From the NCBI RefSeq assembly GCF_932294415.1, contig NC_065537.1, positions 7,234,349 through 7,298,348 of the forward strand: a DNA stretch of 64,000 bases, in the 5' to 3' direction. Each line of letters opens with the position of its first letter. Position 1 is the first letter of the stretch. The notes beneath the pieces were generated by a model, which was given only the letters and a program-made list of their open reading frames with translations, was not told where the DNA came from and did no database searches. Positions 1 to 58,500 of this stretch are shown one piece after another. Source of the DNA: Quercus robur. Its lineage: Eukaryota > Streptophyta > Magnoliopsida > Fagales > Fagaceae. The position numbers and the translations under genes are program-made.

Positions 1-3000
1 CACTTCTCATCATTGACCTATTCCAGCAAGCATGAATTAATGATCAATCTTTTTTGAAAAATTTTACTTCTTTTCCTAGGCTGAAGTCCGTGGATTCCAG
101 CAAGATGGCTTACACCTCCAAGCAAGAAGTTAGAAGTATGGCAAGGTTTGTCTTCCTCATAATTTATAAACTTCTACATTCAGTCGTAGAACATGAAGAA
201 GGAAATAATTGTTTGACTAGCTCGTTTTACATAGAAGAAGCAAGAGCGGTTGGAACTCAAAAAAAGTTTCGGATAGGTTCCTTCTATTTTATATTTTAAT
301 AGTTGAAATTTGTAGTGCAAGGAAATAAAGATTTTGTTTTATAAGATTTCCTATTTTGATTATAATGTTTGTTCTTAGTAGTGTTTTTGTCCTGATTCTA
401 GGCTTGTTATGTATATTTCTAGGTTTGTTATGCATATTCCTCAAGTAGATTGTATATTTCTAGGCTTGTTTTGTATATTTTTGAATTTGTTAGTCATAGT
501 CTTTTTCTTTGTATAAAACTTAAGCTCACCTATTTGTTTTGATGTTATTTTAATAGGATGACAAAAATTCCTCTCAAGGCATGGATATTGTCGTTAATTG
601 GGTACCTTTCGGTTGGCATGGAGTTTGAGACTAAGTAGCATGGATACTTCCACAATGTGGTTGATTTTGAAACTTAGTAGCATAAATAGTGAGGAATTTG
701 CCTATGTGACTTGTAAATTTTTTGTATTCTACATTGGCTCTGATATGACACAAGCTTGTCTGAAGTTGCAAGGAGTGCATGTTGCTAATGCTGATAGAGA
801 GCGTATTGATAATGTTGATAAAGGCACAGAGATAAGTGATGGCTGATAAGGCATGCTTGCTAAGGATAGAATGCTTGTTGGTTGCCCAGTTTTGGTCAGA
901 TTATCAAACTTGGATAATTGTTTGCATTTTTAAAAAGTGCAGACAAATGTAAATTGCAACTTTGTACAATGCATTATTGGAGAAATTTGTACCAGAGCTA
1001 AGCAAATTATCACTAGATTAGTACAAAAGGCTAACAAGTTGGAAGCTAAAATTCTACAGTTAGAGAAGGCTTATTAGTTTGGCATGTGAAAGCAAATGGC
1101 CAAGGACTTGTATTTAGAATAGGTGAATTGTAGTTTAGTTATTGTAAAAGATTGTAGTGACAATTGTTTTGAAAAAGTAGACAATTTCTTATCTTATTTA
1201 ATGTAATGACAATTGTAATGGCCACTCATTATATTATATTGTAATGGAAATTGAAATTCATTTCTTGCAATGGAAATTGGCAATTAGTTGATTTGCCTTA
1301 ATATTGTTCAACAGCTTGTTCAATATAACACCACATAAGCTTGTTCAATATCACCATCATATTGCTCAATAGCTTGTTAAAAAAAAACACCACATAAGAT
1401 AAATAAATTTAGTCGAGTTGCTTTAATACTTAGTTGTTAACATAAAGGCTTTGTAAACTATTATCCAACAAAAAATAGGATACTTATGTCCAATATCACC
1501 ATCATATAAGCTTAACCAAAGGTCCTACCTAAGATCAACATAAAATAGGTTACTTTTGTCCATTAACACCATCAAATAAGCTTATGGACAGCTGTACAAA
1601 ATAGTAACCATAAAAGGTTCAAACAATCAAAGGTCCTAATATATAAAAGGTCCAACAAAACTAACACTGCTACTACCCTTCAATCTTTTCTAGCTCAATT
1701 TCCAGCTCTTCCTTTTCCAGCACCAGTTCCAATTCCTTTTCCAGCTCCAACTCCGTTTCCATACCTACCAACTCCACTACTTCCAACAACACTTGTTTGG
1801 GTTGAGACCTATAATAATAGATACATTTGACCATATGGTAAGCATGTATGCCCAACAAGATCAATGACCAAAATATTGGCAATATGCAAATAGCAAGCAC
1901 AATGTGTAGTATATAGAGAGTAGAGAGAGTTATGTGTCAATTACTTGAAGTTTTATAACTTCCTGAACATTCTGTAGTGCAAAACTTTAAGGTGGTCTAG
2001 GCTGTAGAATGGCTCTCTTGAGTCTTGAACACTTCCTGAGAATAAGACATAGAACATGTCACTTGTGAACACTTCCTGGGTTTGATGTTAGTTGTGGCTT
2101 GTTATTCTTTATGTTCAGTTTGTAACTTGATTGATTATTGTACTTGCGGCGATTGATTGTAATGTCCCCAATTGTATACATCCTATATGCTTGGGTAACT
2201 ATTTTTTTGGTATCAATAAAGTTCCATTACTTATCTAAAAAATGGCATAATACTAATAGTAATACCATAAAAAAATAAAAAATAAATAAAAAAGGGGAAA
2301 AATACATAAGCCCCATGTGGTTTCTATGTAAAACACAGAACCTCATTTCCATTCCTTTTCTTCTTTTTTCCTTTCCATTACTTAATCAACCTATATGGCT
2401 ACCTAATGTACAACAGACACTCACAACTTGGCCATTTCAAATTAGTTTTTCATTTTGTTATAAATAAAAAGCCTATTAGGGAAGAACAAAAGAACAAACT
2501 TGAAGTGCCCCAAATAAATGTGATAGTCTTTCTTTCTTTTTTTTCTAACCCAAATTTGGTATATAGTAGAGAGTAAACAAAGAAATATTACTACTTGTAT
2601 CAGAGATCTACACAAGACATGACCCAAAGAAATGTGAGTAATCATATAGAATTAAAATTCAGAGATCTACAACCACTGCCACCAGAGAAATGAAAACAAC
2701 GAAAACACAATAGATATTTTAAGCAAAATGAGTCCATATTGCTGATTATCAAAAGATTTGTTATTTTTAACAAAATTAATTAATTAATTAATTAATAATT
2801 AACAAAAAACAAAAAAGGAACAGAAATGAAATTTGCATCCAAGATCTACTTCAGCAAATTGTGGTTCGTTAAAATTATGAGAAAATGTAGTAAAATTAAA
2901 TTAATAGAAAGTAAGTTTCTGAGTAAATGAATCTACCACTAGTAACTAACTAACTAACTTGTTCCCTTTAAATTACATTACATTACTCCAGTATTTCAGA

Positions 3001-3279
3001 AACCAAACACAGCCAGCCCAACATGAATGATATGTAAGTAAGTATTAACATAAAGAATCCGGACTAGTTGGGAAAAAAAAATCACAATCAGATTTTTTTT
3101 AGGGTTTGAACCTACCACTTAAGAATCCTATCAAAACTCATGAAAACATCAAAAAACAGCAAAATTCATGCCAAATCAACCAAACCTATAATAATATGAA
3201 CAGATTGATATCCAAAAAAAATTATCCCAAACCCATCAAAATCACGAAATCCAAAAATTGGAGAAATAGAAAATCATAA

Positions 3280-3510
3280 AAGAACAAACCTTGAGTTCGG
3301 TGCGGCGGTGCCAGCTCCAGAGACGACGTGTGCAGCGGCAGGGTGGAGCTCCGGTGCTAAGAGGAGAGGAGGAATCTGATTTAGGGTTTGTTTGAGACTA
3401 TCGTGTAGTTTGATTGAGGATTGAAGGTTTGTGTGAGTTGTGATTGTGTGTATTAGAATGTATTGGCTTTTCATTAAAAAGCTGACGTGGCATTATATTA
3501 TTGGTGGCGT
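3280..3510 (-). promoter_or_regulatory. Possible 5' leader exon with promoter-like upstream, left copy
   Basis: On the minus strand a GC-richer patch (about 3290-3370) sits in AT-rich DNA. It follows a CA-rich, leader-like stretch and ends in a plausible splice donor, CTCAAG|GTTTGTTC, near 3290. Just upstream (3482-3505) are an ACGT-core box (CCACGTCAGC) and a TATA-like TATAATG. This could be the promoter and first non-coding exon of a gene or element that lost its body. No downstream coding exon was found on the minus strand. In the right copy the ACGT core is mutated. Confidence 0.3.
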
Positions 3511-4079
3511 AAAAGAGCTGGTTTACTCTAGCTTCGTACAGAATGTATTCTAAAAAAAATGATATAGATGTTGCTACAGTAACATCTATACTTAGATGTA
3601 ACAATAGTATATTGTAAAATATTTTGAAAAATGATTCACCAGATGGAGAGATTTTGAAAAATGATTTTGTGTATTTTGGTCTATTTACATTTTTTAAAGG
3701 ACTTTTGCATGCTCTTAATGAGCTAGCTAGGATAAAATAACTATGATCATCAGTCTTTTATTTTCCACAAAAGGTCAACGATGCTTTATAAAAATATAAT
3801 AAAAAATAGAAAGGTCTGTGTCGTATGGACCCATGGCCATGTGCGCTTAAACAGTGAGTTTTTTGTTTTTTTTTTTTATGGTTAGTCTGTGTCTTTTGAG
3901 TACGACTGAGGGAGTATTTTAGGCTTTTTATTGTTTTAGCAGCGGGCCATGAGAAAATAACAAAACAAAACAAAACAAAAGAGCTTCGTGCAAAAAGAAT
4001 GAAAAACAAGACAGAGACACCCACATTTTGGATGAGCAGGATTGGTGAAGTTTTGGAATAGGAAAAGTATTTTCTAACG

Positions 4080-4140
4080 GTAGCTTAGAGTGACTGAGAC
4101 CACTTACCAAACAATGGTGGTCCAAGAAATTATAAAAGCA
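4080..4140 (+). promoter_or_regulatory. Orphan promoter module P1 (TATA at 4131)
   Basis: This block (ACCAAACAATGGTGGTCCAA, then TATAAAAG at 4131-4138) matches the sequence directly upstream of the collagen-like gene (11870-11900) and of its paralogue (29340-29377). Homology extends upstream to about 3800. Downstream there is no signal-peptide or proline-rich frame, so the promoter has no recognisable gene here. Confidence 0.55.
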
Positions 4141-5715
4141 TAATGCCCAAGTGTATGCGTGTTTTTTACATTTTTTGGATCACTGATTTATAGATCTAAA
4201 ATGTAAAAATAAACATTCAAGGGAGTCATAATTTCTCTCTAGAAATTAAAAATTAAGGCATTAAAACTCTTCTTATTAAAAATAAAAAATAAAAAACAAC
4301 ATTAACTCTCTACTCTCTAGCTCATCATCTCTATCCAGTTTATGTAAAGAAATTTGAGGTTAGCTCCACAAATTTGTGTTTCGTGTTCTAAAGTGATTTG
4401 CCCTTAGATGTATCAGTTGGGTATACAATTTAACAATTGTATAATTAGAGGTTGTTATTCATGTGATGCTGATGCCTTCAGTACTTGCTGCTCGTCATTG
4501 GTGATGCCACAATTCGCTGGTGGCAAGTAATGAGAAAGGCATATCAAACACTCACAACATAAAATATGCAACAAACAGATGATATGGATAGTGGTGGAGA
4601 GTTTAAGTCTTGAAGATGATGGTGGAGTGTGGAGAATTAATTTAAGTAAAATTAGTTGACATGGCAAATAATATCACTATATTAATGATATGATAAGTTG
4701 TGGTATGCTCACCGTTATATTTTAATAAGAATTTATGATCATCGGTGGCACTATGTATAGTTCAGGATTGGAGTTTAAATGAACCCTCTGAGTTGCCAAT
4801 TTATTTTTTATATATATAATATTTTTTTAATGTTTTTTATTTAACTCCTTTAATAAAAATTTGAACACCTTGACCTCAAATTTATTTTTAAGCCTAGCTT
4901 AAATAAGTTTAAATATGATTCTCTTAACAATATTTTGGTCTTTTTTTTAAAAAAAAAATCCCAACAACAAATCAATTTTATCTAAAATATGGGGGAGTAA
5001 AAAATAGTAAGTCCAACAATAATAGCAAAATTTGTTCATCTTAAACCTCAAAAAATGTTCATTTAGATCTTAACAATTTTTAGTATAAAAATTACATTGT
5101 CTCTAAACAAATATGTAGAACATTATACATTTTTATGCAAAAGTGATATTATACACTTTTGCAAATCTTACATTGATAGTATCTAATCTACAATATAAAC
5201 ATATAATTGTCCTAAACTAATAAATAAAAGTATTTTAGGTAGTATTAATTAAAGTTCACTTAACAACAATAATTTATATATTCATTGTATTTAGAAATGA
5301 TAAATGATTTTCAAGATTTAATTTTAACAACAATAATTAGTATGTTCATTATATAAAGAAATAATATGTCTAATAAACTTATAGTTCATCTTTTATTTTC
5401 ATGCTAGTCCATCTTATGGAAAATTTTTGAAATAAGATCGTAGATTACAGTATTTATCTCTTATCCAAGATTCATATTTTCACCGACTCCCTAGAAAAAT
5501 ATCATGGAGCTCCTACTATGACTATGGTCTTAAAAAGGTGTAATTTTTTTTCAAGTGACACCAAGTGAACTTGTATGAACGAACGGATTTCATTAAAAAA
5601 AAAAGAGTTTACAGAACACATGCACACAAAATACAACCCAACTGGAAATCAACTCACTGAAACACCACACTATCAAGACTGCCACACAAGCCACGACTGA
5701 GAAGTTAACAACCAT

Positions 5716-6048: not shown

Positions 6049-7334
6049 CACTTCTCATCATTGACCTATTCTAGCAAGCATGAATTAATGATCAATCTTT
6101 TTTGACAAATTTTACTTCTTTTCCCAGGCTGAAGTTTGTGGATTCCAGCAGGATGGCTTACACCTCCAAGCAAGAAGTCAGAAGTATGGCAAGGTTTGTC
6201 TTCCTCATAATTTATAAACTTCTACATTCAGTCGTAGAACGTGAAGAAGGAAATAATTGTTTGACTAGCTCGTTTTACATAGAAGAAGCAAGAGCGGTTG
6301 TAACTCAAAAAAAGTTTCGGATAGGTTCCTTCTATTTTATATCTTAATAGTTGAAATTTGTAGTGCAAGGAAACAAAGATTTTGTTTTATAAGATTTCCT
6401 ATTTTGATTATAATGTTTGTTCTTAGCAGTGTTTTTGTCCTGATTCTAGGCTTGTTATGTATATTTCTAGGTTTGTTATGCATATTCCTCAAGTAGATTG
6501 TGTATTTGTAGGCTTGTTTTGTATATTTTTGAATTTGTTAGCCATAGCCTTTTTCTTTGTATAAAACTTAAGCTCACCTATTTGTTTTGATGTTATTTTA
6601 ATAGGATGACAAAAATTCCTCTCAGGGCATGGATACTGTGGTTGATTGGGTACCTTTCGGTTGGCATGGAGTTTGAGACTAAGTAGCATGGATACTTCCA
6701 CAATGTGGTTGATTTTGAAACTTAGTAGCATAAATAGTGAGGAATTTGGCTATGTGACTTATAAATTTTTTGTATTCTACATTGGCTCTGATATGACACA
6801 AGCTTGTCTGAAGTTGCAAGGAGTGCATGTTGCTAATGCTAATAGAGAGCGTATTGATAATGTTGATAAGGGCGCAGAGAGAAGTGATGGCTGATAAGGC
6901 ATGCCTGCTAAGGATAGAATGCTTGTTGGTTGCCCAGTTTTGGTCAGATTTTGGTCAGATTATCAAACTTGAATAATTGTCTACATATTTTAAAATTGCA
7001 GACAAGTGTAAATTAAAACTTTGTACAATGGATTATTGGAGAAATTTGTACCAGAGCTAAGAAAATTATCACTGGATTAGTACGAAAGGCTAACAAGTTG
7101 GAAGCTAAAATTCTGCAGTTAGAGAAGGCTAATTAGTTTGGCATGTGAAAGCAAATGGCCAAGGACTTGTATTTAGGATAGGTGAATTGTAGTTTAGTTA
7201 TTGTAAAATATTGTAGTGACAATTGTTTTGAAAAATTTGACAGTTTCTTATCTTATTTAATGTAATGACAATTGTAATGGCCACTCGTTATATTATATTG
7301 TAATGGAAATTGAAATGCATTTCTTGCAATGGAA

Positions 7335-7344
7335 ATTGACATTT

Positions 7345-7385
<41 letters not shown>

Positions 7386-7401
7386 AGAATTAAAATTGAC
7401 A
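7335..7401 (-). repeat. Poly(T) insertion flanked by a short direct repeat
   Basis: A run of 38 T (7347-7384) followed by a few bases lies between two versions of AATTGACA(T/C)TTAG. The left copy of the duplication has one related version and no T-run. A poly(A) tract with a target duplication is what retroposition leaves, so this may be a minimal tail-only retroinsertion on the minus strand. Slippage at a pre-existing T-run cannot be excluded. Confidence 0.5.
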
Positions 7402-8763
7402 CTTAGTTGATTTGCCTTTATATTGTTCAACATAACACCACATAAGCATGTTCAGTATCACCATCATATTGCTAAATAGCTTGTTAAAAAAAAAAAAAAA
7501 ACACATAAGATAAATAAATTTAGTCGAGTTGCTTTAATACTTAGTTGTTAACATAAAGGTTTTGTAAACTATTATCCAACAAAAAATAGGATACTTATGT
7601 CCAGTATCACCATCATATAAGCTTAACCAAAGGTCCTACCTAAGATCAACATAAAATAGGTTACTTTTGTCCATTAACACCATCAAATAAGCTTATGAAC
7701 AGTTGTACAAAATAGTAACCATAAAAGGTTCAAACAATCAAAGGTCCTAATATATAAAAGGTCCTACAAAACTAACACTGCTACTACCCTTCAATCTTTT
7801 CTAGCTCAATTTCCAGCTCTTCCTTTTCCAGCACTAGTTCCAATTCCTTTTCCATATCTACCAACTCCACTACTTCCAACAACACTTGTTTGGGTTGAGA
7901 CCTATAATAATAGATACATTTGACCATATGGTAAGCATGTATGCCCAACAAGATCAATGACCAAAATATTGGCAATATGGAAATAGGAAGAACAATGTGT
8001 AGTATATAGAGAGTAGAGAGAGTTATGTGTCAATTACTTGAGGTTTTATAACTTCCTGAACATTATGTAGTGCAAAACTTTGAGGTGGTCCAGGCTGTAG
8101 AATGGCTCTCTTGAGTCTTGAACACTTCCTAAGAATAAGACACAGAACATGTCAGTTGTGAACACTTCCTAAGTTGGATGTTAGTTGTGGCTTGTTATTC
8201 TTTATGTTCAGTTTGAAACTTGATTGATTATTGTACTTGGGGCGATTGATTGTAATGTCCCCAATTGTATACATCCTATATGCTTGGGTAACTATTTTTT
8301 TGGTATCAATAAAGTTCCATTACTTATCCAAAAGAACAAACTTGAAGTGCCCCAAAATGTGATAGTCTTTCTTTCTTTCTTTTCTAAGCCAAATTTGGTA
8401 TACAGTAGAGAGTAAACAAAGAAATATTACTACTTGTATCAGAGATCTACACAAGACATGACCCAAAGAAATGTGTGTAATCATATAGAATTAAAACTCA
8501 GAGATCTACAGCCACTGCCACCAGAGAAATGAAAACAACGGAAACACAATAGATATTTTAAGCAAAATGAGTCCATATAGTTGATTATCAAAAGATCTGT
8601 TATTTTTAACAAAATTAATTAATTAATAATTAACAAAAAAAAGGAACAGAAATGAAATTTGGATCCAAGATCTACTATAGCAAATTGTGGTCTGTTAAAA
8701 TTCTGAGAAAATGCAGTAAAATTAAATTAATAAAAAAGTAAGTTTCTGAGTAAATGAATCTAC

Positions 8764-9857
8764 TGTAAGGTTGAATTTAATCAACCATCTTGTTGACTTT
8801 ATTCCGTGCCAAATTTGCTTGTATTTCAGCATTTAGTAACCCTGTATTTAGGTGGGTTTTGTTGTAAGGGTAGTGAGTGAGATAGAGTGATTGAATGTTT
8901 AAGAGTGTGCAAGAAAACAGAGCCTCGCAGCTTGATCTCGCGGGTGACTCGCGGCTGCAAGCCGCCAGAAGCAGCACACGTGCCAAGCATGTCAGAAGTC
9001 GAAGCGTCATGCTAGCTGGAGCACTACAGGACAAAATAGGACAACTGGTCGTTCTGTTATCGCGCGGCTGGAACTCGCGACTCAGTCAAGCCGCGAGCCA
9101 CCCCTGTTTTGAAAAACCTGACATTTCACATTCTTCTCTCAACCCAGTATAAATATCCCTTATACCCACAAATGAAAGAGAGCTTCCAAAGAGAATTTTG
9201 AGAGAGAAACCCTAGAGTAAAAAAGATTGTTTCATCTACAATCTTTACATAAGAGTCTCTTCAAATTCTTCAACTCTCTTCCTCTCTATTGTCAAATCCT
9301 TGAGAGGCATTTTACCAAAACCTTTTTCTCACCATATCTATTACTGTGAGAGGGCTGTTTGGTGTTCTGGGAAGCAGTTAGGAAGGAACCAATCTACATT
9401 GGTTGTTGCTATGGTCAAGTAGTAGAATTCGGGAAGCTAGAAAAGGAATAGGTTCGGCACAACCTCGTTGGAGTAAGAAGCTTGGAGGGCTTAGGTGCAC
9501 TGGGTAGATTAGGCTTAGAAGGTCTATTGCTGTCCATGTATCCCAACTACATTTTCTAGTGGATTGTTTACCGCTTAGAGGGCGGCGGAGAGGTTTTACG
9601 CTGAGGGCTTCGGTTTCCTCTTCGATAACACATCGCATGTTGTCTTTGTGTTTGCATCTTCCTTCCCTTTTATCTTTGCCTTTTATTATCTGCTGTGAGT
9701 TGTGATTTTAATTTGGCTTAGATTGTTTTTCCAATTCTATTTTATAGCTTGTGTTCATTTTCCGCACACTAGTTATTTGACATAAAGGTTGAATTGGTTA
9801 ATTTGTAAATTGGGGGTCTAAATGTTCAAGAGTGTTGTTACACTATTTGAACTTTCA
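8764..9857 (+). mobile_element. Solo LTR, 1094 bp
   Basis: The block begins TGTAAGG and ends CTTTCA, giving inverted TG/CA termini. It is flanked by the direct repeats tctac (8759-8763) and tctat (9858-9862). The left duplication copy holds the uninterrupted site (tctaccactag near 2932), which proves an insertion after duplication. A TATA box (TATAAATA, 9148-9155) lies mid-element, followed by a purine-rich leader, as expected for an LTR promoter. Its GC-rich motifs (CTCGCGGCTGCAAGCCGCC) contrast with the AT-rich surroundings. No internal retrotransposon sequence adjoins it, so it is the product of LTR-LTR recombination. The superfamily is not certain. Confidence 0.85.
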
Positions 9858-10225
9858 TCTATCACTAGTAACTAACTAACTAACTTGTTCCCTTTAAATT
9901 ACATTACATTACTCCAATATTTCAAAAACCAAACCCAGCCAGCCCAACATGAATGATATGTAAGTAAGTATTAACATAAAGTATCCAGACTAGCTGGGGG
10001 AAAAAAAAAATCACAATTAGATTTTTTTTAGGGTTTGAACCTACCACTTAAGAATCCAATCAAAACTCATGAAAACACCAAAAAACAGCAAAATTCATGC
10101 CAAATCAACCAAACCTATACTAATATGAATAGATTGATATCCAAAAAAGTTATCCCAAACCCATCAAAATCACGAAATCCAAAAATTGGAGAAATAGAAA
10201 ATCATAAAAGAGCAAACCTTGAGTT

Positions 10226-10470
10226 CGGTGCGGCGGCGCCAGCTCCAGAGACGACGTGTGCAGCGGCGAGGTGGAACTCCGATGCTAAGAGGAGAGGAGG
10301 AATCTGATTTGGGGTTTATTTGAGACTATCGTGTAGTTTGATTGAGGATTGAAGGTTTATGTGAGCTGTGATTGAGTGTATTAGAATGTATTGCCTTTTC
10401 ATTAAAAAGCTGATGTGGCACTATATTATTGGTGGTGTAAAAGAGTTGGTTTATGCCAGCTCCGGACGGA
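10226..10470 (-). promoter_or_regulatory. Possible 5' leader exon, right copy
   Basis: This is the counterpart of 3280-3510, with the same GC-richer patch and the donor-like CAAG|GTTTGCTC on the minus strand. The ACGT core upstream has changed from GACGTGG to GATGTGG on the plus strand. No coding sequence follows. Confidence 0.25.
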
Positions 10471-10994
10471 AGGTATTCTAATAAAAAATGATATAGATGT
10501 TGCTACAGTAACATCTATATTTAGATGTAAAATATTTTGAAAAATGATTCACCAGATGGAGAGATTTTTGTGTATTTTGGTGAATGGTGTATTTTGGTGA
10601 AAAATATTTTAAAGGACTTTTGCATGCACTTAATGAGCTAGCTAGGATAAAATAACTATGGTCATCAGTCTTTTATTTTCCACAAAAGGTCAAAGATGCT
10701 TTATAAAAATATAATAAAAAATAGAAAGGTCTGTGTGGTATGGACCCATGGCCATGTGCGCTTAAACAGTGAGTTTTTTGTTTTTTTTTTTATGGTTAGT
10801 CTGTGTCTTTTGAGTACGACTGAGGGAGTATTTTAGGCTTTTTATTGTTTTAGCAGCGGGCCATGAGAAAATAACAAAACAAAACAAAACAAAAGAGCTT
10901 CGTGCAAAAAGAATGAAAAACAAGACAGAGACACCCACATTTTGGATGAGCAGGATTGGTGAAGTTTTGGAATAGGAAAAGTATTTTCTAACGG

Positions 10995-11052
10995 TAGCTT
11001 AGAGTGACTGAGACCACTTACCAAACAATGGTGGTCCAAGAAATTATAAAAG
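10995..11052 (+). promoter_or_regulatory. Orphan promoter module P2 (TATA at 11045)
   Basis: This is the right-copy counterpart of P1 and is near-identical to it, with TATAAAAG at 11045-11052. No gene follows it. The intact gene's own promoter lies only about 840 bp further right, so two versions of the module stand in tandem here. Confidence 0.55.
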
Positions 11053-11839
11053 CATAATGCCCAAGTGTATGCGTGTTTTTTACATTTTTTGGATCACTGA
11101 TTTATAGATCTAAAATGTAAAAATAAACATTCAAGGGAGTCATAATTTCTCTCTAGAAATTAAAAATTAAGGCATTAAAACTCTTCTTATTAAAAATAAA
11201 AAATAAAAAACAACATTAACTAGCTCATCATCTCTATCCAGTTTATGTAAAGAAATTTGAGGTTAGCTCCACAAATTTGTGTTTCGTGTTCTAAAGTGAT
11301 TTGCCCTTAGATGTATCAGTTGGGTATACAATTTAACAATTGTATAATTAGAGGTTGTTATTTTTTGTCATGTGATGCTGATGCCTTCAGTACTTGCTGC
11401 TCGTCATTGGTGATGCCACAATTCACTGGTGGCAACTAATGAGAAAGGCATATCAAACACTCACAACATAAAATATGCAACAAACAGATGATATGGATAG
11501 TGGTGGGGAGTTTAAGTCTTGAAGATGATGGTGGAGTGTGGAGAATTAATTTAAGTAAAATTAGTTGACATGGCAACCTCACTATCAGGACTGCCACACA
11601 AGCCACAACTGAGAAGTTAACAACCATTACGTACGGTCTAGAAAATTCAACTGGAAAGTGGATGCATGCATGTATTATTGTACTAGCACCGACTTTCCTA
11701 TTAATAAAAATAAAAAGGTCCATGTCGCAAGGGCCCATGGCTCTTTTTTATTTTTTTATTTTTGGGTTATTTTTGTTTTCGGAAAAAATAACAAAATAAA
11801 ACAAAAGAGGTTCATGCAAAAAATTAAAATAAGGTTGGT

Positions 11840-11900
11840 GAAGTCTGAGACTGCCTAAGACTATCTACCAAACGATGGTGATCCAAGCAACTATAAAAAG
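11840..11900 (+). promoter_or_regulatory. Core promoter of the collagen-like gene (TATA at 11892)
   Basis: CCAAACGATGGTGATCCAAG is followed by TATAAAAAG at 11892-11900. A start of transcription about 30 bp downstream would lie near 11922. That excludes the ATG at 11902, which is in another frame, and leaves a leader of about 45 nt before the ATG at 11970. Conservation of the block in P1, P2 and P4 supports a promoter role. Confidence 0.6.
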
Positions 11901-11969
11901 CATGGCTTTGTGGGTATTTCAGAGCAGACGGAGCTTCACCTCCAACTACAACATCCAAATATTTCAACC

Positions 11970-12581
11970 ATGTTTGCCCTGTTCTTCATGTTGTTTACCA
12001 CCATCATCGCACCACTAATTCCAACCCTCTCTTCACAACCACCACCACTAATTCCAACCCTCTCTTCACAACCACCACCGCCAATTCCAACCCTCTCTTC
12101 AGAACCACCACCACCACCCTTCCCCACATTTCCGTCCCTTACTCCGCGTCCAAGAACTCCAGCGCCAGCACTTGAGTTTCCTCCAATCCCACCTTTCCCC
12201 CAATTTCCCCCTTTCACTCCATCACCACCAAATGACAACAAATGTGCTACATGTCAAGAACAATCAGTACCAGTGTCGGTCGTGCTGGAGATTACCTTCG
12301 CAATAACAATGTCAATCGCCTTAACCGTCACAGTGACGGTTTCCATTAGCCGGCGAAAGGGGGAAAAAGGGGACAAAGGGGACCAAGGGGACAAAGGGGA
12401 CAAAGGGCCGAAAGGGGACAAAGGGGACTGTTGTTATTGCTGCAAGGGCTACAAGGGCTGCGAGTGCCGCATTAGCTGCCAGGAAATGATAACAGTAATT
12501 TTTTTCCTATCTGTTTGGATTTTTATATTTTTTTCCCCCCAGTTTTTACCATTTGGTTCTGAGAATACTGTTGTTCTTTAA
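11970..12581 (+). CDS. Proline-rich membrane protein with collagen-like Gly-X-Y tail
   Basis: Predicted protein of 203 residues; I do not recognise the family. Residues 1-22 form a hydrophobic signal peptide (MFALFFMLFTTIIAPL). Residues 15-86 are proline-rich, with three tandem copies of an 11-residue unit containing IPTLSS(Q/E)PPP. A CxxC (C92, C95) precedes a single transmembrane helix at about 99-127, followed by RRK, which predicts a cytoplasmic C-terminus. Residues 131-153 have Gly at every third position (8 Gly, mostly GDK), a collagen-like tract. Seven Cys follow between 154 and 170, and then a second hydrophobic stretch (173-190). I chose the ATG at 11970 because the TATA at 11892 places transcription start after the ATG at 11902, and because the paralogue at 29469 starts identically. 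The last ~33 residues align with apparently untranslated sequence in the paralogue, so the native C-terminus is uncertain. It is probably a cell-wall or plasma-membrane protein; no function is assigned. Confidence 0.5.
   Translation: MFALFFMLFTTIIAPLIPTLSSQPPPLIPTLSSQPPPPIPTLSSEPPPPPFPTFPSLTPRPRTPAPALEFPPIPPFPQFPPFTPSPPNDNKCATCQEQSVPVSVVLEITFAITMSIALTVTVTVSISRRKGEKGDKGDQGDKGDKGPKGDKGDCCYCCKGYKGCECRISCQEMITVIFFLSVWIFIFFSPQFLPFGSENTVVL
12015..12113 (+). repeat. 33-bp in-frame triplication in the proline-rich domain
   Basis: Units start at 12015, 12048 and 12081, each beginning c(t/c)aattccaaccctctctt. The period is a multiple of three, so the frame stays open. The paralogue at 29469 has one unit, so this is a lineage-specific expansion. 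Confidence 0.9.
12360..12428 (+). repeat. 9-bp minisatellite encoding the Gly-X-Y tract
   Basis: Repeats of ggggacaaa and close variants encode the Gly-Asp-Lys triplets. The aligned region of the paralogue encodes a non-repetitive Gln/Pro-rich tail, so the collagen-like tract arose by local repeat expansion rather than by descent from a collagen. Confidence 0.85.
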
Positions 12582-13059
12582 ACCCAAAATCCGCTCTACA
12601 CAAAAAATACAGTGGCTGGGTCTGACGGGTCAGGCTGAAGCTAAAAATAAAAAAAGATGGGGGCGTTGACGTTATGCAGTCCCAAGACACCCCATCACCA
12701 AGACCGCAAAATAAAGTAGAAATGAAAAGCACAAACCTTATCTTTACCCTGCTTCTTCTGCGTTTTCCAGTTTCCCTTCTTCTCCAATCTTCTGTGTTTT
12801 CTTTCTGCAATTATTCTTCTTATTTCTTTGGGTTTCCTTTCTTCCTCTATCACTGGTACCCAAAACGGCAAAACCAAAAAAATAATAATTTTAACAATTA
12901 TTGAAATAGTATAATGTGAATTAATAATTTTTCTATTTATTATTATTTTTTTAACAATTAACAATATTCCATTCATATAAAAAGTACATTTGAAAGATGG
13001 TTTTTATTTTTACTTTTTGGAACTATTTTATTTATTTTTTCCATTTATACTAATTTATT
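12582..13059. other. AT-rich 3' flank, no supported gene
   Basis: The block interrupts the homology between the 3' flanks of the gene and its paralogue, so it is probably inserted or rearranged DNA. An ATG frame at 12674-12904 encodes a Phe/Leu/Ser-rich low-complexity peptide with no recognisable domain, and I do not treat it as a gene. Confidence 0.5.
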
Positions 13060-13202
13060 ATATTTATTTATATATATTTTAAATAACTTTTAAATTAATC
13101 ATAACATCATCATGATTCGACCTCAGTTAGACCTCTATCCAACCTCAAAAATCTTAAACCCCTTCGTTTTTCGGTTCTTTGAACAGTCTGGGTTTTAAAA
13201 CC
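13060..13202 (-). repeat. Dispersed repeat, minus copy
   Basis: Read on the minus strand this starts ggttttaaaaccc and continues through a region with gaggt(t)g and ctaactgaggtcgaa into an AT-rich tail. It matches 15146-15295 on the plus strand. The edge at 13202 coincides with the point where homology to the paralogue's 3' flank resumes, which supports an insertion. The class of element is unknown. Confidence 0.45.
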
Positions 13203-14480
13203 ATTATATGGGTTTGACAAGGTGTGTAGAAGTTGGATGATCTTTTGTGTTGTTAAGTAGGTTCTTTCCTGGGAATTTCTATTCAATTCGTATATGCTAT
13301 GAGGTCCTTCTAAGGAGAAATTATTAAGACCTAGGTCCCAAGTAGTCCCAACCAATAATAAAAAGCCACACATTTAAAACAACTCTGACTTAACTTCTTA
13401 AATGAAAAAACAAAACAAAACCACATAAATTTAACTCTAGTTAAAAAAAAAAAAATTAATTGGAAAAACACAAATAAATTTAATTTATAAACAGGCAAGA
13501 TTCAAAAGCTTTAAATAAATTTGAAATCCAAAAGCTCAATCTCATCAGTTTGTATTTAGTTTTAGCGACCTTAGTCTTTCCATAAAGGTCTTTTTCTCTC
13601 AAAACTCTAGATTAGTTTCCTTCTTCTACTCCATAACCATCACTAATCTATCTCAAACTTTATGGCAAAGAATATGGCCAACGAGTATAGGTGCTTACGC
13701 AGTCCATAGATGTGTATTTAAAAAGAATGATGAAAATGGAGGCATGATGAATTTTCGTAAAAGCTGCAGAGCAATTTTTTCTTTTTCATCAAGATTTTAT
13801 TCTTGTGTGTGTGTGTGTGTGTGTTTTTTCCCCCCCAAATAACTATTTAACCACTGACTTTCTTTTTGAATTTATTTTTACATTAATAGTGTGACCATAG
13901 GGGTTGGCCTTAGTAACTGATGTGCATGTGCGAATATTGTGGAATCAGCTATCACCTAATAGCAAAGATTGATGTCAAAGTTTTGAATTGAAGATTGCAA
14001 ATGTTATATTCGGTCGTGGATTTGATGTGAGCTTTGAACATTGGTTCTAATGTGATCTACTTGTGTAGTTTGGAATAGTTGTTTTAATTTGGGATTGTAA
14101 TATTTTGGCGTATAAATAAGGTTAGTGGTATTTGTAGAAGTTTGGAGGTTAGTATTTGCAAATGATTTGTGTTTCAGGGATTAATTTTGTTTTAGTGTTT
14201 GGATATCATTGTAAATTGTGTTTGTTTTGATAATAAAATTTCTCCTTTATCCAAACAAATAGGTTTGTCAATGGCATGTGTTGTCTGTAAAATGCTTTTA
14301 ATAGGGCAGTTTGTTGTGCTTGGCCATATCCTTGGCTATATTCGAAAAGTGACTATTATTGAATAAATGAATTGTATTGAATGTGGACCCAGCAAAACTC
14401 TTGTATGCGCTCGGCACATGAGATATCTTTTCAGGATTTGGGAATTAAATATAGTTTGTGTTGTAAATGAATGAGCTCTT
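13203..14480. other. 3' flank homologous to the paralogue's flank, no gene
   Basis: This stretch aligns with 30061-31280 and with 32320-33530, showing that gene and flank were copied together. It includes a (GT)n run at 13806-13824 that is also present, with different length, in both other copies. Near 14365-14385 it preserves the empty site of the TIR element found at 33531-34400. No frame is conserved across the three copies. Confidence 0.6.
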
Positions 14481-15295: not shown

Positions 15296-15824
15296 AAAAC
15301 TTAAAAAGACCCCCCCCCCTTTTTTTGGTACTTCCTTGGCCTTTCCAAGGCTGTATTCAATGGAAGTATCAAGTTCGTTTATGTGATTAATATTCCCATG
15401 TTATTAATAGTATCATTTCTGATTGAACATAGTTTAATTGTCAATTCCAATCTCAAATTATCACTGTAAGGGCAGAACATTGCCTTTAACTTAGATAAAC
15501 GTTTACTCGAGTGTTAACTCAGCAGCGTAATATTCTTATGCAATTGGTAACAAAAAGAAAAACTAACCTTTCTACGGTCAGCAAAATAATAACTGAACTT
15601 GAAGATAAACCAATATACCTGAAATATTCAGTCCAAAGAGCTGCGTATGACCAAGGTTCCACTCCCAATTGTAATCAGGTGTGAGTAGTTGGCTATAGAG
15701 ATTTGACATAGTTAGGCCTTAGTTCACCACTTAACCATATAAGTAGCGTCATCCCACTAAGTATCAGTGGACAGGGGAGCCCCATAAGACTAAAACTCAA
15801 TTTGTTATTTAGAGGGGTAGGTAG
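15296..15824. other. Presumed 3' end of the first Tat-type element, LTR not identified
   Basis: A C9 run and moderately GC-richer sequence follow. The 3' LTR of the minus-strand element should lie here, but I could not recognise its termini or a polypurine tract. Confidence 0.3.
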
Positions 15825-16613
15825 TATTAACTCATCCAAAATATATGGTTTGAGGATTCAGACATGACCAAAGTTCTGTTTAACCCTTAACGAAATATGT
15901 AGTATTAATTTATCCAAGATATGTGATCCAAAGAACCAGGCATGACCAAGGTTCTGTTTAATACTTAATGAAATATGTAGCATTAATTTACCCAAGGTAT
16001 GTGGTTCGAGGAACCCGTCATGACCGAGGTTCTGTTTAATACTTAATGAAATATGTGATATTAATTTACCCAAGGTATGTAGTCTAAGAAACTAGGCATG
16101 ACCAAGATTCTATTTAACATTTAACGGAATATGGAATATTAATTTACCTAAGGTATGTGATCCGAGAAACCAAACATGACCGAGATTCTGTTTAATACTT
16201 AACAAAATATGGAGTATTAATTTACCCAAGGTATGTGGTCCGAAAAACCAGGCAGGACCTATGTTCTGTTTAATACTTAACGAAATATGGAGTATTAATT
16301 TACCCAAGGTATGTATTCCAAGGAACCAGGCATGACCGAGGTTCTGTTTAACACTTAACAAAGTATGGAGTATTAATTTACCCAAGGTATGTGGTCTGAA
16401 AAACCAGATAGGACCTAGGTTTTATTTAATACTTAACAAAATATGGAGTATTAATTTACCCAAGGTATGTATTTCGAGGAACCAGGCATGACCGAGATTC
16501 TGTTTAATACTTAATGAAATATGTGGTATTAATTTACTTAAGGTATGTGGTCCGAGGAACCAGGCATGATCGAACTTCTGTTTAATACTTAATGAAATAT
16601 GTACTATTGGAAA
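15825..16613 (-). repeat. 78-bp tandem array, 10 copies, exact period
   Basis: The marker atgacc or its variant recurs at 15864, 15942, 16020, 16098, 16176, 16254, 16332, 16410, 16488 and 16566, always 78 bp apart with no indel. Since 78 is 26 codons, the minus strand stays in one frame and encodes a repeated peptide with cores such as LGKLILHISLSIKQNLGHAW. Only two internal stops break it (near 16419 and 16107), each where a Gln codon would stand. The array begins about 40 nt behind the pol stop (16662-16664), in the same frame as integrase. Confidence 0.95.
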
Positions 16614-16661: not shown

Positions 16662-17735
16662 TTAATAATAGTACTTTTGCAGGTTATTTACATTCCACAA
16701 GTGTGGTACAACATTTCCATCTAAGTCTTCTAAATAGTAAGCCCATATACTAGCCACTGAGGTGATGCGATAGGGCCCCTCTTAATTTGGTATGAGCTTT
16801 CCCCAAGATGGGTTCTTCGCAGTTCCTACTACTTTCCTTAACACCAAGTCACCCAGTATCAGTGGTCTCTCCTTCACACTTGTATCATACCTTTGTTTAA
16901 GCTTTTGTTGATAATGCGCCAATTGTACTGTAGCAGCTTCTCTTTGCTCATCAATCAGATCTAAGCTTTTCTCTAATAGCCGATCATTATTGTTCGGAGT
17001 GAATAAGCTTGTCCTTAATGTTGGAAACTCAGTCTCTAAAGGAATTGCTACCTCAGACCCATATGTCATCGAAAAAGGTGTTTCTTCGGTTGACCAACGA
17101 GGAGTAGTCTGACATGTCCAAAGAACATGCGGTAATTCTTCCACCCACCTTCCTTTTGATTCATCTAACCTCTTCTTGAGCTCATTCCCTATGACTTTAT
17201 TGACCGCTTCAGCTTGTCCATTTCCTTGTGGATAAGCTAGAGTTGAATATTGGATCCTGATGTCTAATTCACAACAATATCTCCTAAAAGCTTTATTATC
17301 AAATTGAAGCTCATTATCCGAGATGAGAGTATGAGGGATGCCAAACCAAGTAACTATGTTTTTCCAAACAAACTTCTTGGCATCTACGTCTTTGATATTA
17401 GATGATGGCTCAACTTCCACCCACTTTGTAAAGTAATCAGTTCTTACCAGAAGCCATGTTTGATTTCCTGTGGCCTTAGGAAATGGTCCTACAATATCTT
17501 GGCCTCATTAAGTAAATGGCCAGGGGTTGGACAAAGGATTGAGTACACCTCCAGGTTAATGAATGTTCGGAGTAAATCTCTAACACTGGTCACACTTTTT
17601 TGCATATTCTTGGGCATCTCTCTACATATTCGGCCACCGATGCCCCTGAGTAAAAGCTCTATGGGATAAGGATTTGCCCCCAGTGTGACTTCTGCATATC
17701 CCTTCACGTAATTCTTCTAGAAGCAATTCCACTGC
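16662..17735 (-). pseudogene. Integrase of the first Tat-type element
   Basis: Integrase inserts the cDNA copy into host DNA. In minus-strand order, a degraded zinc-binding region (HTGGKS, CDQC, about 17530-17700) precedes the catalytic core. GQDIVGPF gives the first Asp, LISDNELQFD the second and GQAEAVNK the Glu, so the DDE residues are visible. The C-terminal part ends with the family-typical GPYRITSVA, YYLEDLDG and NVNNLQKYYY before a TAA at 16662. Premature stops (two in the PWPFT-GQD linker, one TAA in place of the Trp codon before EGPYRI at about 16779) make it non-functional. The longest clean stretch is 16782-17420. Confidence 0.85.
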
Positions 17736-18377
17736 CTAAAGGTGAACACAAAGCAAATAAGGTTTAGAGAAAGAAAGTTTGTACAACTTCTTCTCCTCGG
17801 AAAACCAAAAGTGAGGAGCTTTCCACCTTATCTTCTCTACCTTCCCCCTATCAAGAGGTAAGGCACCATCCTTAAGGAATAAGACCAACTGATCCATCCA
17901 ACAAGGTCTAACCTTGATCTGGTGAACCAGAACTTTCTCCTTTTGGTCCTCAGCAGGCTTATGCAAATCTTCAACAAGTATTACCCAAGGTAGATATGTG
18001 CCAGAAGAGGTCACAAGGGTTGCTAAAGAGTCAGCATATGTATTCCTACATCTAGGAATTTGTTGTATGGTGAAGAACTCAAAATCTGACTGCAAGCACT
18101 GAACTCGACCTAAATACCCTTGCATTCTTAAATCCTTGGCCTCTAATTCTCCTCTTACTTGCCCCACGATGAGCTGGGAATCCGAGAACACTTCGACAAC
18201 TTTTCCTGCCATTTTCAAAACCATAGCTAGCCCTATCAGTAGAGCTTCATACTCAGTTTCATTGTTCGTGGCTGAGAAGCCTAATCTTAAAGATTTTTCA
18301 ATAGTGATTCCATCCGGGGACACTATTACCAGCCCCACCCCGGATCCCTTTTGATTTGCTGCTCCATCAATGTACAA
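17736..18377 (-). pseudogene. RNase H (second, plant-type) of the first Tat-type element
   Basis: This domain removes the RNA strand during reverse transcription. YIDGAANQKGSG supplies the first Asp, NNETEYEALL the Glu, FSDSQLI the second Asp and NTYADSLA the last Asp, so the four acidic catalytic residues are present. The remaining ~100 residues form the linker to integrase. The 213-residue stretch is open, but a frame break separates it from the upstream RT-side fragment at about 18380. A second, better preserved RNase H after a degenerate first one is what is known of Tat elements. Confidence 0.85.
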
Positions 18378-18380
18378 TAT

Positions 18381-18650
18381 CTAGGGTGTAAGCCCCTGTG
18401 GAGAAATTGTCAGAGCTAGCTTTCCCACTAATCTATGCTCTTCAACCTCTACCCCCGTTGGAGGCTTAGTGAACTCAACCACTAAATCTACAAGAACTTG
18501 TCCTTTAACTAAAGAACGTGGCATGTACATTATATCAAAGGCCCCCAAGATTGTCCCCCATTTGGCAACTCTCCCTGTATAATCAACTTTTTGCAATAAA
18601 GACTGCAAGGGGAGTTGAGTTAGAACTACAATGGTGTGTGCCTAAAAGTA
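18381..18650 (-). pseudogene. RT-RNase H connection, 3' part after LTR insertion
   Basis: The minus-strand frame reads AHTIVVLTQLPLQSLL, then DYTGRVAKWGTILGAFDI and KGQVLVDLVVEF, which is the C-terminal part of the first RNase H-like segment and its tether. A stop stands in place of the Gln just after the insertion point. The N-terminal part lies at 19690-19900 on the far side of the solo LTR. Confidence 0.8.
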
Positions 18651-18655
18651 ATGGG

Positions 18656-19689
18656 TGTTAGGACATATGTGTTTCATATGTTAAGAACAGATGTTATGAT
18701 TTTATGTAATTGGCTTATCCTTTGACAAAACGCACTTTACTTGTATTTGGATAGATTTAGGTTGATTTAAATACTTCAAGAAACTTTGTTTCAAGATAAA
18801 GTATTAAAACTTTTAAGTCTGTTCAAGAAAACAAGTTCAGAGTGCAAAATTATTAAAACTCGATAGCTGGCTCGACAACTGTATCTATCGAGCTTAAGGA
18901 AGTTGTTCTTCATTCGGTGTGCTTGACACCTGCTCGACACCTGCTCGACACCTGCTATCTATCGAGATTTAAGATTGTCATAATTCCAATCTGATTTTCT
19001 TGGGATCCATGAATGTGTCTTTGGGCTTTCTTTTCTCCTAACCATAGACATATAAAAAGATCAGTTTAAGGGCCGTTAAAGTGTTCACAAGTTGCACAAG
19101 TTTTGAGCAAACTCTGTTCAAGCAAAGTGTGACAGGAGACGAAGTTCTTGCTCTAGTTCATCTCTTTCTCTTGAAGAAGTTGCTGTATATGTGCACCGTA
19201 GGGTTTTGTGATCAAGCATCTTCTTGATCTTTATCATGTGGATGAACTGAAGAACTTTGCAACCAACAACCTTCTTAGTTGGTGATTGAAGTCGCGTACT
19301 GGGATCTGCACAATTGGTTAGTCACATATTTGGGAGTCATGCATCTAAAAGGAAAACTGTCACTACAGAACAAGTCCAATTGGATATTGGGGTAAGGGTT
19401 CAACTGTAGGTTTGTAAGGTACTTGGATTCCTTTACTTGTAACCATTTGTTGTGATAATAGTGGAGTTTCAGGAGTGGTGACCTGAAAATCACCTGGTGG
19501 GGGTTTTGCTGTTAGATTTTCCCCATTCGTAAACAAATCATCATGTTATTTATTTTCTGCTACATAATTAGTTTATTAGTGATTTGTTTATGCTACCACA
19601 CATTTGCATGATAAATTGATTAATTAATAACTTGACTAATTAATTAATTAATTTATATCACAATGGGTCATTTAGTTTGTGGCCTATCA
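18656..19689 (+). mobile_element. Copia-type solo LTR, 1034 bp, inserted in pol
   Basis: It begins TGTTAGGACATATG and ends GGCCTATCA. Flanks are atggg (18651-18655) and atagg (19690-19694), a 5-bp target duplication with one change, and the interrupted pol frame resumes directly across it. A TATA box lies at 19051-19058 and a threefold 15-bp repeat (cacctgctcga) near 18925-18955. No internal copia sequence remains. A relative in opposite orientation lies at 22265-23148. Confidence 0.85.
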
Positions 19690-20243
19690 ATAGGGAAGCT
19701 TCCTCATAGCGTGCACCACTACCAAGATGGCCTTTTCCAAAAGCAAGCAGCAAATTTCAACTTCGTGCAGAGATTTACTCGCATAATAGATTGATCTTTG
19801 TACTCCTTCCTCCACTCTCACTAGTACTAAGCTGACTGCATGTGAAGCCATAACAATGTAAGCGAAGAGGACTTCTTCCCTTTTGGGTCTCGACATAATG
19901 GGTGGCCAAGAAAGATAATCCTTCAGTTGTTGGAAGGCAAGAGCACACTCCTCATTCCATTCGAACCCCTTCTATTTGTGCAACAGCTAGAAAAATGGCC
20001 TACATCTATTTGTTGACCTAGATATAAATCTGTTAAAGGCAGCTATCATCCCTGTTAGTTTTTGCACTTCCTTCGGATTCTGAGGTGGTTGTAGATCATT
20101 AATCACTTTGATTTAATCAAGATTAACCTCAATTCCATGCTGCGTGACCATATAACCCAAAAACTTGCCCGAGTTAACACCAAAAGAACACATAGAAGTA
20201 TTAAGGCATAACTTGTGCCTCCTCAACACTTTAAAAATATCTC
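19690..20243 (-). pseudogene. First RNase H-like segment, N-terminal part
   Basis: From higher to lower coordinates the minus strand encodes LRRHKLCLN, FLGYMVTQHGIEVN, the conserved NDLQPPQNPKEVQKLTGM, RFISRSTNRCRPFF, ECALAFQQLKDYLS and then SRPKREEVLFAYIVMASHAV to AMRKLPY. These are the hallmarks of the thumb, connection and first RNase H region of Ty3/gypsy pol. Several stops are present. It is interrupted by the solo LTR immediately after KLPY. Confidence 0.8.
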
Positions 20244-21006
20244 CTAGTCCTTCAAATGCTCAGCAACCACCGTACTCTTCACAACCATATCATCAATATA
20301 AACCTCTATATTCTTACCTAGTTGGGACTCAAACATTCTTGTCATCATCCTTTGATAGGTAGATCCAACATTCTTCAATTTGAAAGGCATCACCTTATAA
20401 TGATAATTCCCAATAGGTGTAAGAAAAGCAATCTTCTCCTGGTCGGCCAGAGCTAGTGGAATTTGATGGTACCCCTGAAAGGCATCCAAAAATCTCATCT
20501 GAGAATGTTCAATGGTAGCATTTACTAATTGGTCTATTTAGGGTATTGGGAAGGGATTCTTAAGGCAAGCTTTGTTTAAATCTGTGAAATCTACACACAC
20601 CCTCCACTTCCCACTCTTCTTCACTACTATTGTATTGGCCAACCATTATCGGTAAAAAGACTTCCTTTATTGCCCTTGCACACTTGAGCTTCGTTACCTC
20701 TTCTTTAACAGCCTCAGTGTGTTCCTTGGATGAGTGCCTAGATGGTTGCTTCTTTGAGACAACGGTTGGATTGACATTAAGGAGATGACATATAAAATCA
20801 GGGTCCACTCCAAGAGCTTCATAAGCTCTCCAAGAAAAGATGTCCATGTTTTCGCGTAAGAAAGGCAGTAGCTCTTCCTTTTCTTGAAGAGGCAGTTGTA
20901 CCCTTACTTGAAAAAACTTCTCTACGTCAGTACATATCATCACCCTTTCCAACCCTTCACATTTGGCTTCCTCGCCCACGACGCGTGAGGGAGTTTCCAC
21001 ATTCAT
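20244..21006 (-). pseudogene. Reverse transcriptase of the first Tat-type element
   Basis: The domain copies element RNA into DNA. The minus strand shows the N-terminal fingers region (LLPFLRENMDIFSWRAYEAL, HLLNVNP, EEVTKLK), then in another frame WRVCVDFTDLNKAC-like sequence near 20580-20620, and then MRFLDAFQGYHQIPL, PFKLKNVGSTYQRMM and the catalytic YIDDMVVKS at about 20280-20310. The active-site YIDD is intact, but at least one frameshift (about 20650) and a stop separate fingers from palm, so no functional enzyme is encoded. Confidence 0.85.
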
Positions 21007-29299: not shown

Positions 29300-29377
29300 A
29301 GAGCAAGGTTGGTGAAGTCTGAGACTGCCTGAGACTATCTACCAAACGACGGTGATCCAAGCAACTATATAAAAAAA
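29300..29377 (+). promoter_or_regulatory. Promoter module P4 of the paralogue (TATA at 29366)
   Basis: ACCAAACGACGGTGATCCAA is followed by TATATAAAAAAA from 29366. The upstream region from about 28800 matches 3550-4130 and 10490-11040. The ATG at 29469 lies about 100 bp behind the TATA box. Confidence 0.55.
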
Positions 29378-29468
29378 TAAAAATAAAAATACTAAAAAAG
29401 CATGGCTTTGACTTTATGGCTATTTCAGAGCAGACGACCTTCAGCTCCAACTCCAAAATCCAACAACC

Positions 29469-29876
29469 ATGTTTGCCCTGTTGTTCATGTTGTTTACCAC
29501 CATCATTGCACCACTAATTCCAACCCTCTCTTCACAACCACCACCACCCTGGCCCCCATTTCCCTCCCTTACTCCACCACCGCCAGCATTTCAGTTTCCT
29601 CCAATCCCACCTTTTCGCCCTTTCACTTCATCACTTCATCACGACAACATATGGCCTCCAACTACAACCAGTATCCGTGCCCCTCGTGCTGGGGAGTATC
29701 TTGGCTCTAACTACATTAACCGGCATCCTCGCGGTGATGATTTACCATCGTCAACGCAACCAGCCTCAGGTACAGGCAGTGCAACCGCCGCTTCCGATCG
29801 AGGACCCTGTAACTGTGCACGGATGGAGCCGCGTAATTGTGTACTCGATCACATAGTGATATACGACGTCTGGTGA
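29469..29876 (+). pseudogene. Frameshifted paralogue of the collagen-like membrane protein
   Basis: The first 25 residues are nearly identical to the gene at 11970 (MFALLFMLFTTIIAPLIPTL), followed by a shorter proline-rich region with one repeat unit. The frame stays open for 135 residues but loses the membrane segment. That segment is found in the next frame (29677-29745: VPLVLGSILALTTLTGIL, then a basic YHRQR) and continues to a TAG at 29854. Between the conserved GACAAC and GTA(T/C)C(C/A)GTG there are 22 nt here and 27 nt in the intact gene, so a net 5-nt loss explains the shift. The alternative tail is Gln/Pro-rich and has no Gly-X-Y tract. It could still make a secreted truncated protein, but a pseudogene is more likely. 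Confidence 0.6.
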
Positions 29877-57470: not shown

Positions 57471-58500
57471 TGATGCACAAAAATCATCAGTGATTTGATC
57501 GTCCACACACGTGCTATTGGATGTACTTGAAGAATAAAAGAGAAGAACCAATCAAAGGGCACCAATGAGTACCAGCCAAAAACCCTCCGAAGGTTAAGTC
57601 AGTAATAGAAAACTCTCCAAAAACTCAAGAGTGTAAAAGATAGGGAGGATTCACATACCTCAAGAAAGGTAATGTTTGTGATTTATATAGTGGTAGAGAA
57701 CTGACATGAATCCCTTGATACGGGGGAATTTCCTTGTAGAGAGAAAGGTCCTAAGATACTCAGGATCACCTTTCCATATATAAGATATTTGATTGCATAG
57801 TAGGGCCTTTGGTCATGATATGCAAGTAATTTCCATACAAGGATGCATAAGTGGGCCCCACGTAAGCCCCATGGAAACCCTAGGGGGACGAGTCGTAAAG
57901 ATCAGGGATTGCCTAATTCATCAACCCACGTGTTGGTCATCACTTTTTGGGGTCGGTCATCCATTTGGGATCGATCATCCCTTTTAGGATCAGTCATCCG
58001 TTTCAGGGTTGGTCATCCTTTTGGGGATCAATCATCCCTTTTGGGGTTAGTCATCCCCTTTTAGGGTTGATCATCCCTTTCGAGGGTCGGTCATCCTTTT
58101 TGGGATCAATCATCCTTTTCAAGGGTCGATCATCCCTTTTTAGGGTCAGTCGTCCATTTTGGGATCGATAATCCCTTTTGGGGTTGGTCTTCCCTTTCGG
58201 GATTGGTTATCCCTTTCGGGGGTCGGTCATCCCTTTCGATTGATCGTCCCTTTTGGGGTTAGTCATCCCTTTTAGGGATCAATCATCCCTTTTGGGATTG
58301 ATTATCCTTTTCGGGGTTAGTCATACCTTTTAGGGTTAGTCATCCCTTTCGAGGGTCAGTCATCCCTTTCGGGGTCAATCATCCCTTTTGGGATTGGCCG
58401 TCCCTTTTAGGATTGATCATCCCTTTTAGGGGTTGATCATCCCTTTTGGGATTGATTATCCCTTTTAAGGTTGATCATCCCTTTTGGGCACCTCCATAGC
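57471..58500 (-). repeat. 5' LTR of the second Tat-type element with minisatellite
   Basis: It starts on plus with TGATGCACAAAAATC and shares its first ~190 bp with 50862-51050. The far end is uncertain. The half away from the primer site is a ~19-bp minisatellite (57955-58490). Confidence 0.65.
57955..58490. repeat. ~19-bp minisatellite, about 28 units
   Basis: Units such as ggtcggtcatccctttt and gatcaatcatccctttt recur every 18-20 bp. They are degenerate at (t/c)gg(t/a)c/gat(c/t) but keep catcc(c/t)ttt. Confidence 0.9.

Follow-up and report, generated by a model that had tools for sequence, protein, structure and literature searches.

The window, by which we mean the whole 64,000-nucleotide stretch of Quercus robur DNA analyzed here, contains an ORF of 203 amino acids running from ATG to TAA at 11970-12581; this gene, its flank, and its paralogue all lie on the plus strand. 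The stop-to-stop frame that holds the ORF (11859-12578, 240 codons) is the joint longest in the window. Hydropathy analysis of the ORF revealed three peaks, at residues 2-20, 104-126, and 170-188, and together with tandem repeat detection by TRF it bore out the order of domains and the underlying 9-bp array as described in the initial annotation, whose attribution of the DNA to a plant was likewise supported. The first peak falls in a signal-peptide-like N-terminus (MFALFFMLFTTIIAPLIPTLSS; 11970-12035), and in an alignment of 14 sequences the N-terminal 22 columns include 13 that are invariant and 6 that are almost invariant. This start is followed by a Pro-rich segment predicted to be extracytosolic (12036-12281; 31 Pro in residues 23-104), and the ORF as a whole holds 0 SPPP motifs. 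Inside the Pro-rich part, a 33-bp tandem array detected by TRF (12010-12114; 3.2 copies, LIPTLSSQPPP-type units) reiterates the last part of the signal-peptide region.

A hydrophobic helix (12273-12350; residues about 102-127) is then followed by Ser-Arg-Arg-Lys, by eight Gly-X-Y triplets that run uninterrupted from residue 131 on a 9-bp minisatellite of GGGGACAAA (12360-12431), and by a Cys-rich patch with 7 Cys (CCYCCKGYKGCECRISCQ; 12429-12482). The remainder (12483-12581) either extends the protein at its C-terminus with hydrophobic sequence or is where an intron or 3' UTR starts; its hydrophobic stretch at residues 170-188, absent from the initial annotation, may form a helix or lie in a 3' UTR or intron. 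Since Arg-Arg-Lys follows the helix and the start resembles a signal peptide, the Gly-X-Y tract is predicted to be cytosolic, which is consistent with the side proposed for it earlier and suggests a type I single-pass protein, with one further hydrophobic stretch (170-188) if the ORF is unspliced. An AlphaFold monomer model built on 22 sequences contains helices at residues 2-13, 16-21, 102-132, and 167-188 (mean pLDDT 63) and shows the tract without secondary structure (pLDDT 50-54), a monomer model being silent on trimers. A Pfam scan of the protein found no kinase domain, and the Rfam and tRNA scans returned no matches.

The minisatellite that had been proposed to underlie the tract was recovered by TRF as a 9-bp array at 12360-12428 (7.7 copies, 85% matches). 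Its eight units occur in the order GGGGAAAAA, GGGGACAAA, GGGGACCAA, GGGGACAAA twice, GGGCCGAAA, GGGGACAAA, and GGGGACTGT. They place Gly at every third residue over all 8 triplets and give six Lys-Gly-Asp/Glu pairs; the Pfam Collagen model (PF01391) matches residues 131-152 with E=2.4e-4 and 21.2 bits, under the 27.2-bit cut-off. Such a pattern is easily obtained from 9-bp arrays, since, of the 9-mers that contain no stop, 17% carry Gly at exactly one of their three codons when read in a given frame, and (GGGGACAAA)n yields Gly-X-Y in 3/3 forward frames (GDK, GTK, and GQR). The tract of a single gene is therefore weak evidence for a collagen-like domain, and the case depends on relatives. All eight Gly codons are GGG, so a recent event may have been a local change inside an older tract.

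A paralogue of this gene lies at 29469-29876. Its best match among the proteins compared is P0013, a relative without a Gly-X-Y tail; its open frame lacks the helix, which is encoded in a frame different from that of its N- and C-terminal parts. The initial annotation had taken a Gln/Pro-rich tail in the paralogue as the ancestral state, for which this copy is a poor proxy because it is nearest to the tail-less P0013 and carries its helix in another frame. The 5' flank of the gene (11831-11969), with a TATA box (TATAAAAA) from 11892 and a probable short 5' UTR, is identical to the paralogue flank (29305-29468) at 125/132 aligned bases. The two flanks differ by indels of 26, 6, 1, and 6 bp and are thus probably not coding; a coding role for the open frame 5' of the ATG was set aside on this ground. 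Gene and paralogue agree at 77/79 bases in the first 26 codons (11970-12048) and, with indels, at 114/142 in the rest of the Pro-rich part and 37/49 in the helix, which suggests a conserved start and a faster-changing remainder. Across 11831-12048 and 29305-29547, conservation between the paralogues is higher in the promoter-proximal flank and the codons of the signal-peptide-like start than elsewhere in the gene. This pattern resembles that of secreted-peptide families, in which a constant leader precedes a variable mature part.

The surroundings are rich in repeats. A tandem duplication 5' of the gene (1-5715 and 6049-11627, pieces 92-97.5% identical) stops about 340 bp short of the ATG, and no protein copy was matched in its first unit. 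A second, of 2.26 kb (29826-32084 and 32080-34334, 96%), begins within the last part of the paralogue, whose final codons it copies. On the minus strand at 16785-20537 we found retrotransposon-like frames with PF00665 integrase core (below cut-off), PF13456 RNase H-like, and PF00078 reverse transcriptase matches, adjoined by a 78-bp tandem repeat x10 at 15823-16608. A further tandem array with overlapping periods of 19, 39, and 58 bp occupies 57932-58488.

Relatives and the distribution of Gly-X-Y tails

To test for a recent origin in this one gene, we left the tract out and scored residues 1-132 only (E<=0.01); 531 candidates yielded 15 proteins. The tract proved to be present and variable in copy number: 11/15 relatives (P0001-P0009, P0011, and P0012) carry a Gly-X-Y tail of 6-17 triplets after the helix, 3/15 (P0010, P0013, and P0015) carry another tail, and P0014 stops before the helix. 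Most relatives come from ENA contigs that carry no species label. The seven species-named ones all have a Gly-X-Y tail (7/7) and span Quercus, Castanea, and Lithocarpus: P0002 of Q. suber (6 triplets), P0003 of Q. lobata (13, named "collagen alpha-2(IX) chain-like" at NCBI), P0006 (17, ACB092_11G092100) and P0012 (7) of C. dentata, P0007 (9) and P0009 (10) of C. mollissima, and P0011 of Lithocarpus litseifolius (14). Quercus and Castanea belong to the Fagaceae, in which a taxonomy look-up also placed Lithocarpus. In 5/7 of these relatives the tract directly follows the basic residues, and in P0011 and P0012 the two are separated by a short charged spacer. We rejected contamination with a collagen gene of bacterial or animal origin, the species-named matches obtained without the tract all being from Fagaceae.

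A full-length search that included the tract scored the 7991 candidates sharing most words, and 120 of its 266 matches were listed. Of 12 newly listed matches examined, 10 have the family helix or 3' end and two (P0081 and P0119) share the tract alone; among the matches listed, this added P0016-P0024 and P0039 to the family, and the remaining listed ones may include more members. Because this search used the tract, the members it contributed are enriched for it, and the unbiased count is the 11/15 above. Tracts of 6-20 triplets occur in 21 of the 26 proteins (the window protein, P0001-P0024, and P0039) and are missing from P0010, P0013, P0014, P0015, and the decayed P0024. The 235 triplets of the 21 tracts have mainly D, P, or E at X and mainly K, P, or Q at Y; P0016, with 20 triplets, has Pro at 14 X and 11 Y positions. 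PF01391 exceeded its cut-off in six of ten relatives scanned (P0003, P0005, P0006, P0011, P0016, and P0017), matched P0001, P0002, and P0008 under it, and gave no match to P0013. The window protein shares the conserved MFALLFMLFTTIIAPLIPTLSS-type start, the helix, the basic residues, the Gly-X-Y tract, and the Cys-rich end of the family, the last being absent in some members such as P0007 and P0009.

A profile search with 14 N-terminal pieces (E<=1, 7984 candidates scored, shared words required) returned 17 proteins, and those with species names are all from Fagaceae. Five of the 17 were further matches, namely P0126 with a tract, P0123 with another tail, and P0122, P0124, and P0125, which stop before the helix. 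No relative outside Fagaceae was found among the 17; as only 7984 candidates were scored and shared words were needed, distant relatives may have been missed.

In a tree of 23 sequences based on the N-terminal part and the helix, the tail-less P0010, P0013, P0015, and P0123 cluster together (support 1.0), and the tailed sequences can be read as another four groups, to which P0002 is loosely joined. This tree is unrooted, 7/23 sequences are partial, P0020 sits on a very long branch, and the paralogue at 29469-29876 was left out. As the tree has no outgroup, it fits gain and loss of the tail equally for the tail-less group. The tract seems dispensable in some copies, being absent from P0010, P0013, P0015, and P0123, interrupted in P0017 and P0018, and decayed in P0024. 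Taken most simply, these comparisons suggest that the Gly-X-Y tail is older than the divergence of Quercus, Castanea, and Lithocarpus. It resembles an inherited, changeable trait of a little-known tree gene family and not an isolated accident. On sequence comparison, we consider this reading as a whole, a family of small membrane proteins bearing an inherited tract of variable length, to be somewhat probable.

Collagen-like module or flexible tail

The anatomy of the family proteins, their kinship, and the placement and variability of the tract are observed, and we infer their topology, translation, and function. The members would be small membrane proteins with a signal-peptide-like start, an extracytosolic Pro-rich part, one helix, and a cytosolic tail flanked by basic residues; in this tail a collagen-like tract, differing in length between members, would be followed in many of them by a Cys-rich end. 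Slippage of the 9-bp repeat and exchange between paralogues, which we infer as causes, would shift the tract length and the X and Y residues, and Gly at every third position would mostly be retained while X and Y change. Three tails rich in Lys-Gly-Asp/Glu might then twist together as a short triple helix free of hydroxyproline, which could serve as a cytosolic trimerization module for a single-pass membrane protein facing the wall. Plant prolyl hydroxylases work in the secretory pathway, so a tract predicted to be cytosolic would be unhydroxylated. According to a review (PMC7824840), Lys-Gly-Asp/Glu pairs make host-guest peptides melt 15.4-17.5 °C higher, and recombinant constructs of bacterial collagen, 75-237 residues long, fold and are stable without hydroxyproline; the window tract is short by comparison, with eight triplets or 24 residues. 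A short trimerizing module is thus possible, and we hold trimerization by this tract to be a tentative and rather doubtful step.

A charged tail that is simply flexible is no less likely than a trimerizing module. The family could be real and translated and its tail an unstructured charged linker, with Gly-X-Y arising incidentally from a G-rich 9-bp minisatellite and no triple helix forming; this explanation competes with the trimerization step only, leaves the inherited tail intact, and has in our view a little under an even chance. It fits the ease with which 9-mers yield Gly-X-Y (17% of stop-free ones per frame, and (GGGGACAAA)n in all three), the shortness of the window tract, its eight GGG codons, the interruption or absence of the tract in some relatives, and the tract without order in the monomer model. 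It accounts less well for the unbroken Gly of relatives with 13-20 triplets and diverged X and Y residues, such as P0016, or for the fewer differences found at Gly than at X or Y sites, a count that is biased. For this count, Gly-X-Y tracts of 7 or more triplets were aligned with a residue-blind score in pairs of 50-99.9% identity. Ten disjoint pairs differ at 10/112 Gly, 42/105 X, and 31/107 Y sites (156 pairs, mismatches: 248/1807, 1000/1730, and 795/1705), figures that are biased, as the tracts were selected for being intact, the pairs for 50-99.9% identity, and the register itself depends partly on Gly. Two of the ten pairs contain P0019 and P0126, which are near-identical, and the p value of about 7e-5 is given no weight. 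Apparent constraint on Gly is thus supportive only.

Apparent mosaic structure and the status of the window copy

The helix region of the window protein is nearest to those of P0001 (26/35), P0017 (20/25), and P0024 (20/26), and its Cys-rich patch and 3' part are nearest to P0016 (47/49, residues 155-203) and P0008 (27/38), whose helix regions match it poorly (5/16 and 14/35, respectively). P0008 also matches window positions 12499-12666 in a different frame (91%). The gene therefore looks like a mosaic of two subfamilies with a switch within the array or close to it. The simplest reading would be that paralogues exchanged sequence at or close to the Gly-X-Y array, convergence of the helix being less likely.

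The 3' end allows two structures. The end of Q. suber P0002 matches window positions 13261-13338 at 21/26 residues, with one stop in the window, and points to a candidate GT-AG intron at 12495-13260 and a possible second exon (VLSWEFLFNSYML and a stop) at 13261-13302. If 12494 is joined to 13261, the product has 188 aa and lacks the second hydrophobic stretch, and the last ~28 codons of the ORF may be 3' UTR or intron. P0003 stops directly past CQEKTGWW, and several ENA frames continue like the window ORF.

It is conceivable, although we think it unlikely, that the window copy is a pseudogene or an untranscribed chimera in a repeat-rich region while the family functions elsewhere. The mosaic structure, the retrotransposon-like frames and tandem duplications close by, the disrupted frame of the paralogue, and an ORF end possibly in non-coding sequence would all fit such a copy; yet its open frame, the joint longest in the window, holds the signal-peptide-like start, the helix, the tract, and the Cys-rich patch, and its TATA-containing 5' flank is conserved. 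A recent de novo tail, which the initial annotation had proposed as an expansion of the minisatellite within a formerly Gln/Pro-rich tail of the window gene, is very improbable: the in-window paralogue without a Gly-X-Y tail and the homogeneous array agree with it, but 11/15 tract-free relatives, including 7/7 species-named ones from three genera, are tailed after the helix and the tail-less sequences form one group on the unrooted tree, which contradicts it unless tails arose many times at the same site. The inherited tail is thus normal within its family and unusual for plants, and it did not arise de novo in the window gene.

A possible plant collagen-like module among known systems

To our knowledge, plants are not known for collagen-like proteins. 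No plant collagen-tailed family is described in the titles and abstract openings of the papers listed on collagen-like proteins of plants or Fagaceae, most listings covering a part of the papers found, in keeping with the rarity that the initial annotation had supposed. If the tails trimerize, they would form a plant triple-helix module of independent origin, on the membrane side opposite to that of animal membrane collagens. Short, long, interrupted, and tail-less copies would then coexist among living Fagaceae, and one could test directly how a minisatellite gives rise to a collagen-like domain and how that domain is maintained. The most far-reaching proposal is that of an independently evolved plant collagen-like module, hydroxyproline-free and facing the cytosol, that was kept and diversified while 9-bp repeats set its length and provided an exchange point shuffling helices and Cys-rich ends; we regard it as improbable.

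Animal transmembrane collagens (types XIII, XVII, XXIII, and XXV) are type II proteins with the collagen outside. They resemble the window protein in combining a membrane helix with a collagenous segment, whereas for the window protein a type I orientation is predicted, in which the tract lies inside and is very short. Scl1 and Scl2 are bacterial surface proteins, and they share with the window tract charged X and Y residues in Gly-X-Y and folding without hydroxyproline. Their tracts have 50 and 79 triplets in the serotypes cited in PMC8968730, in contrast to 8 in the window protein, which is predicted to be cytosolic and has unrelated flanks. PERKs resemble it in their wall-facing Pro-rich part and helix, but the Pfam scan found no kinase domain in it. 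One criterion of an extensin survey, as given in PMC4769139, is at least two SPPP motifs, and with 0 such motifs the window protein differs from extensins. The closest likeness is to Fagaceae proteins P0003 and P0006, which have the same succession of N-terminus, Pro-rich part, helix, Gly-X-Y tail, and Cys-rich end and differ in belonging to another helix subfamily, in their 13 and 17 triplets against 8, and in their C-terminal ends.
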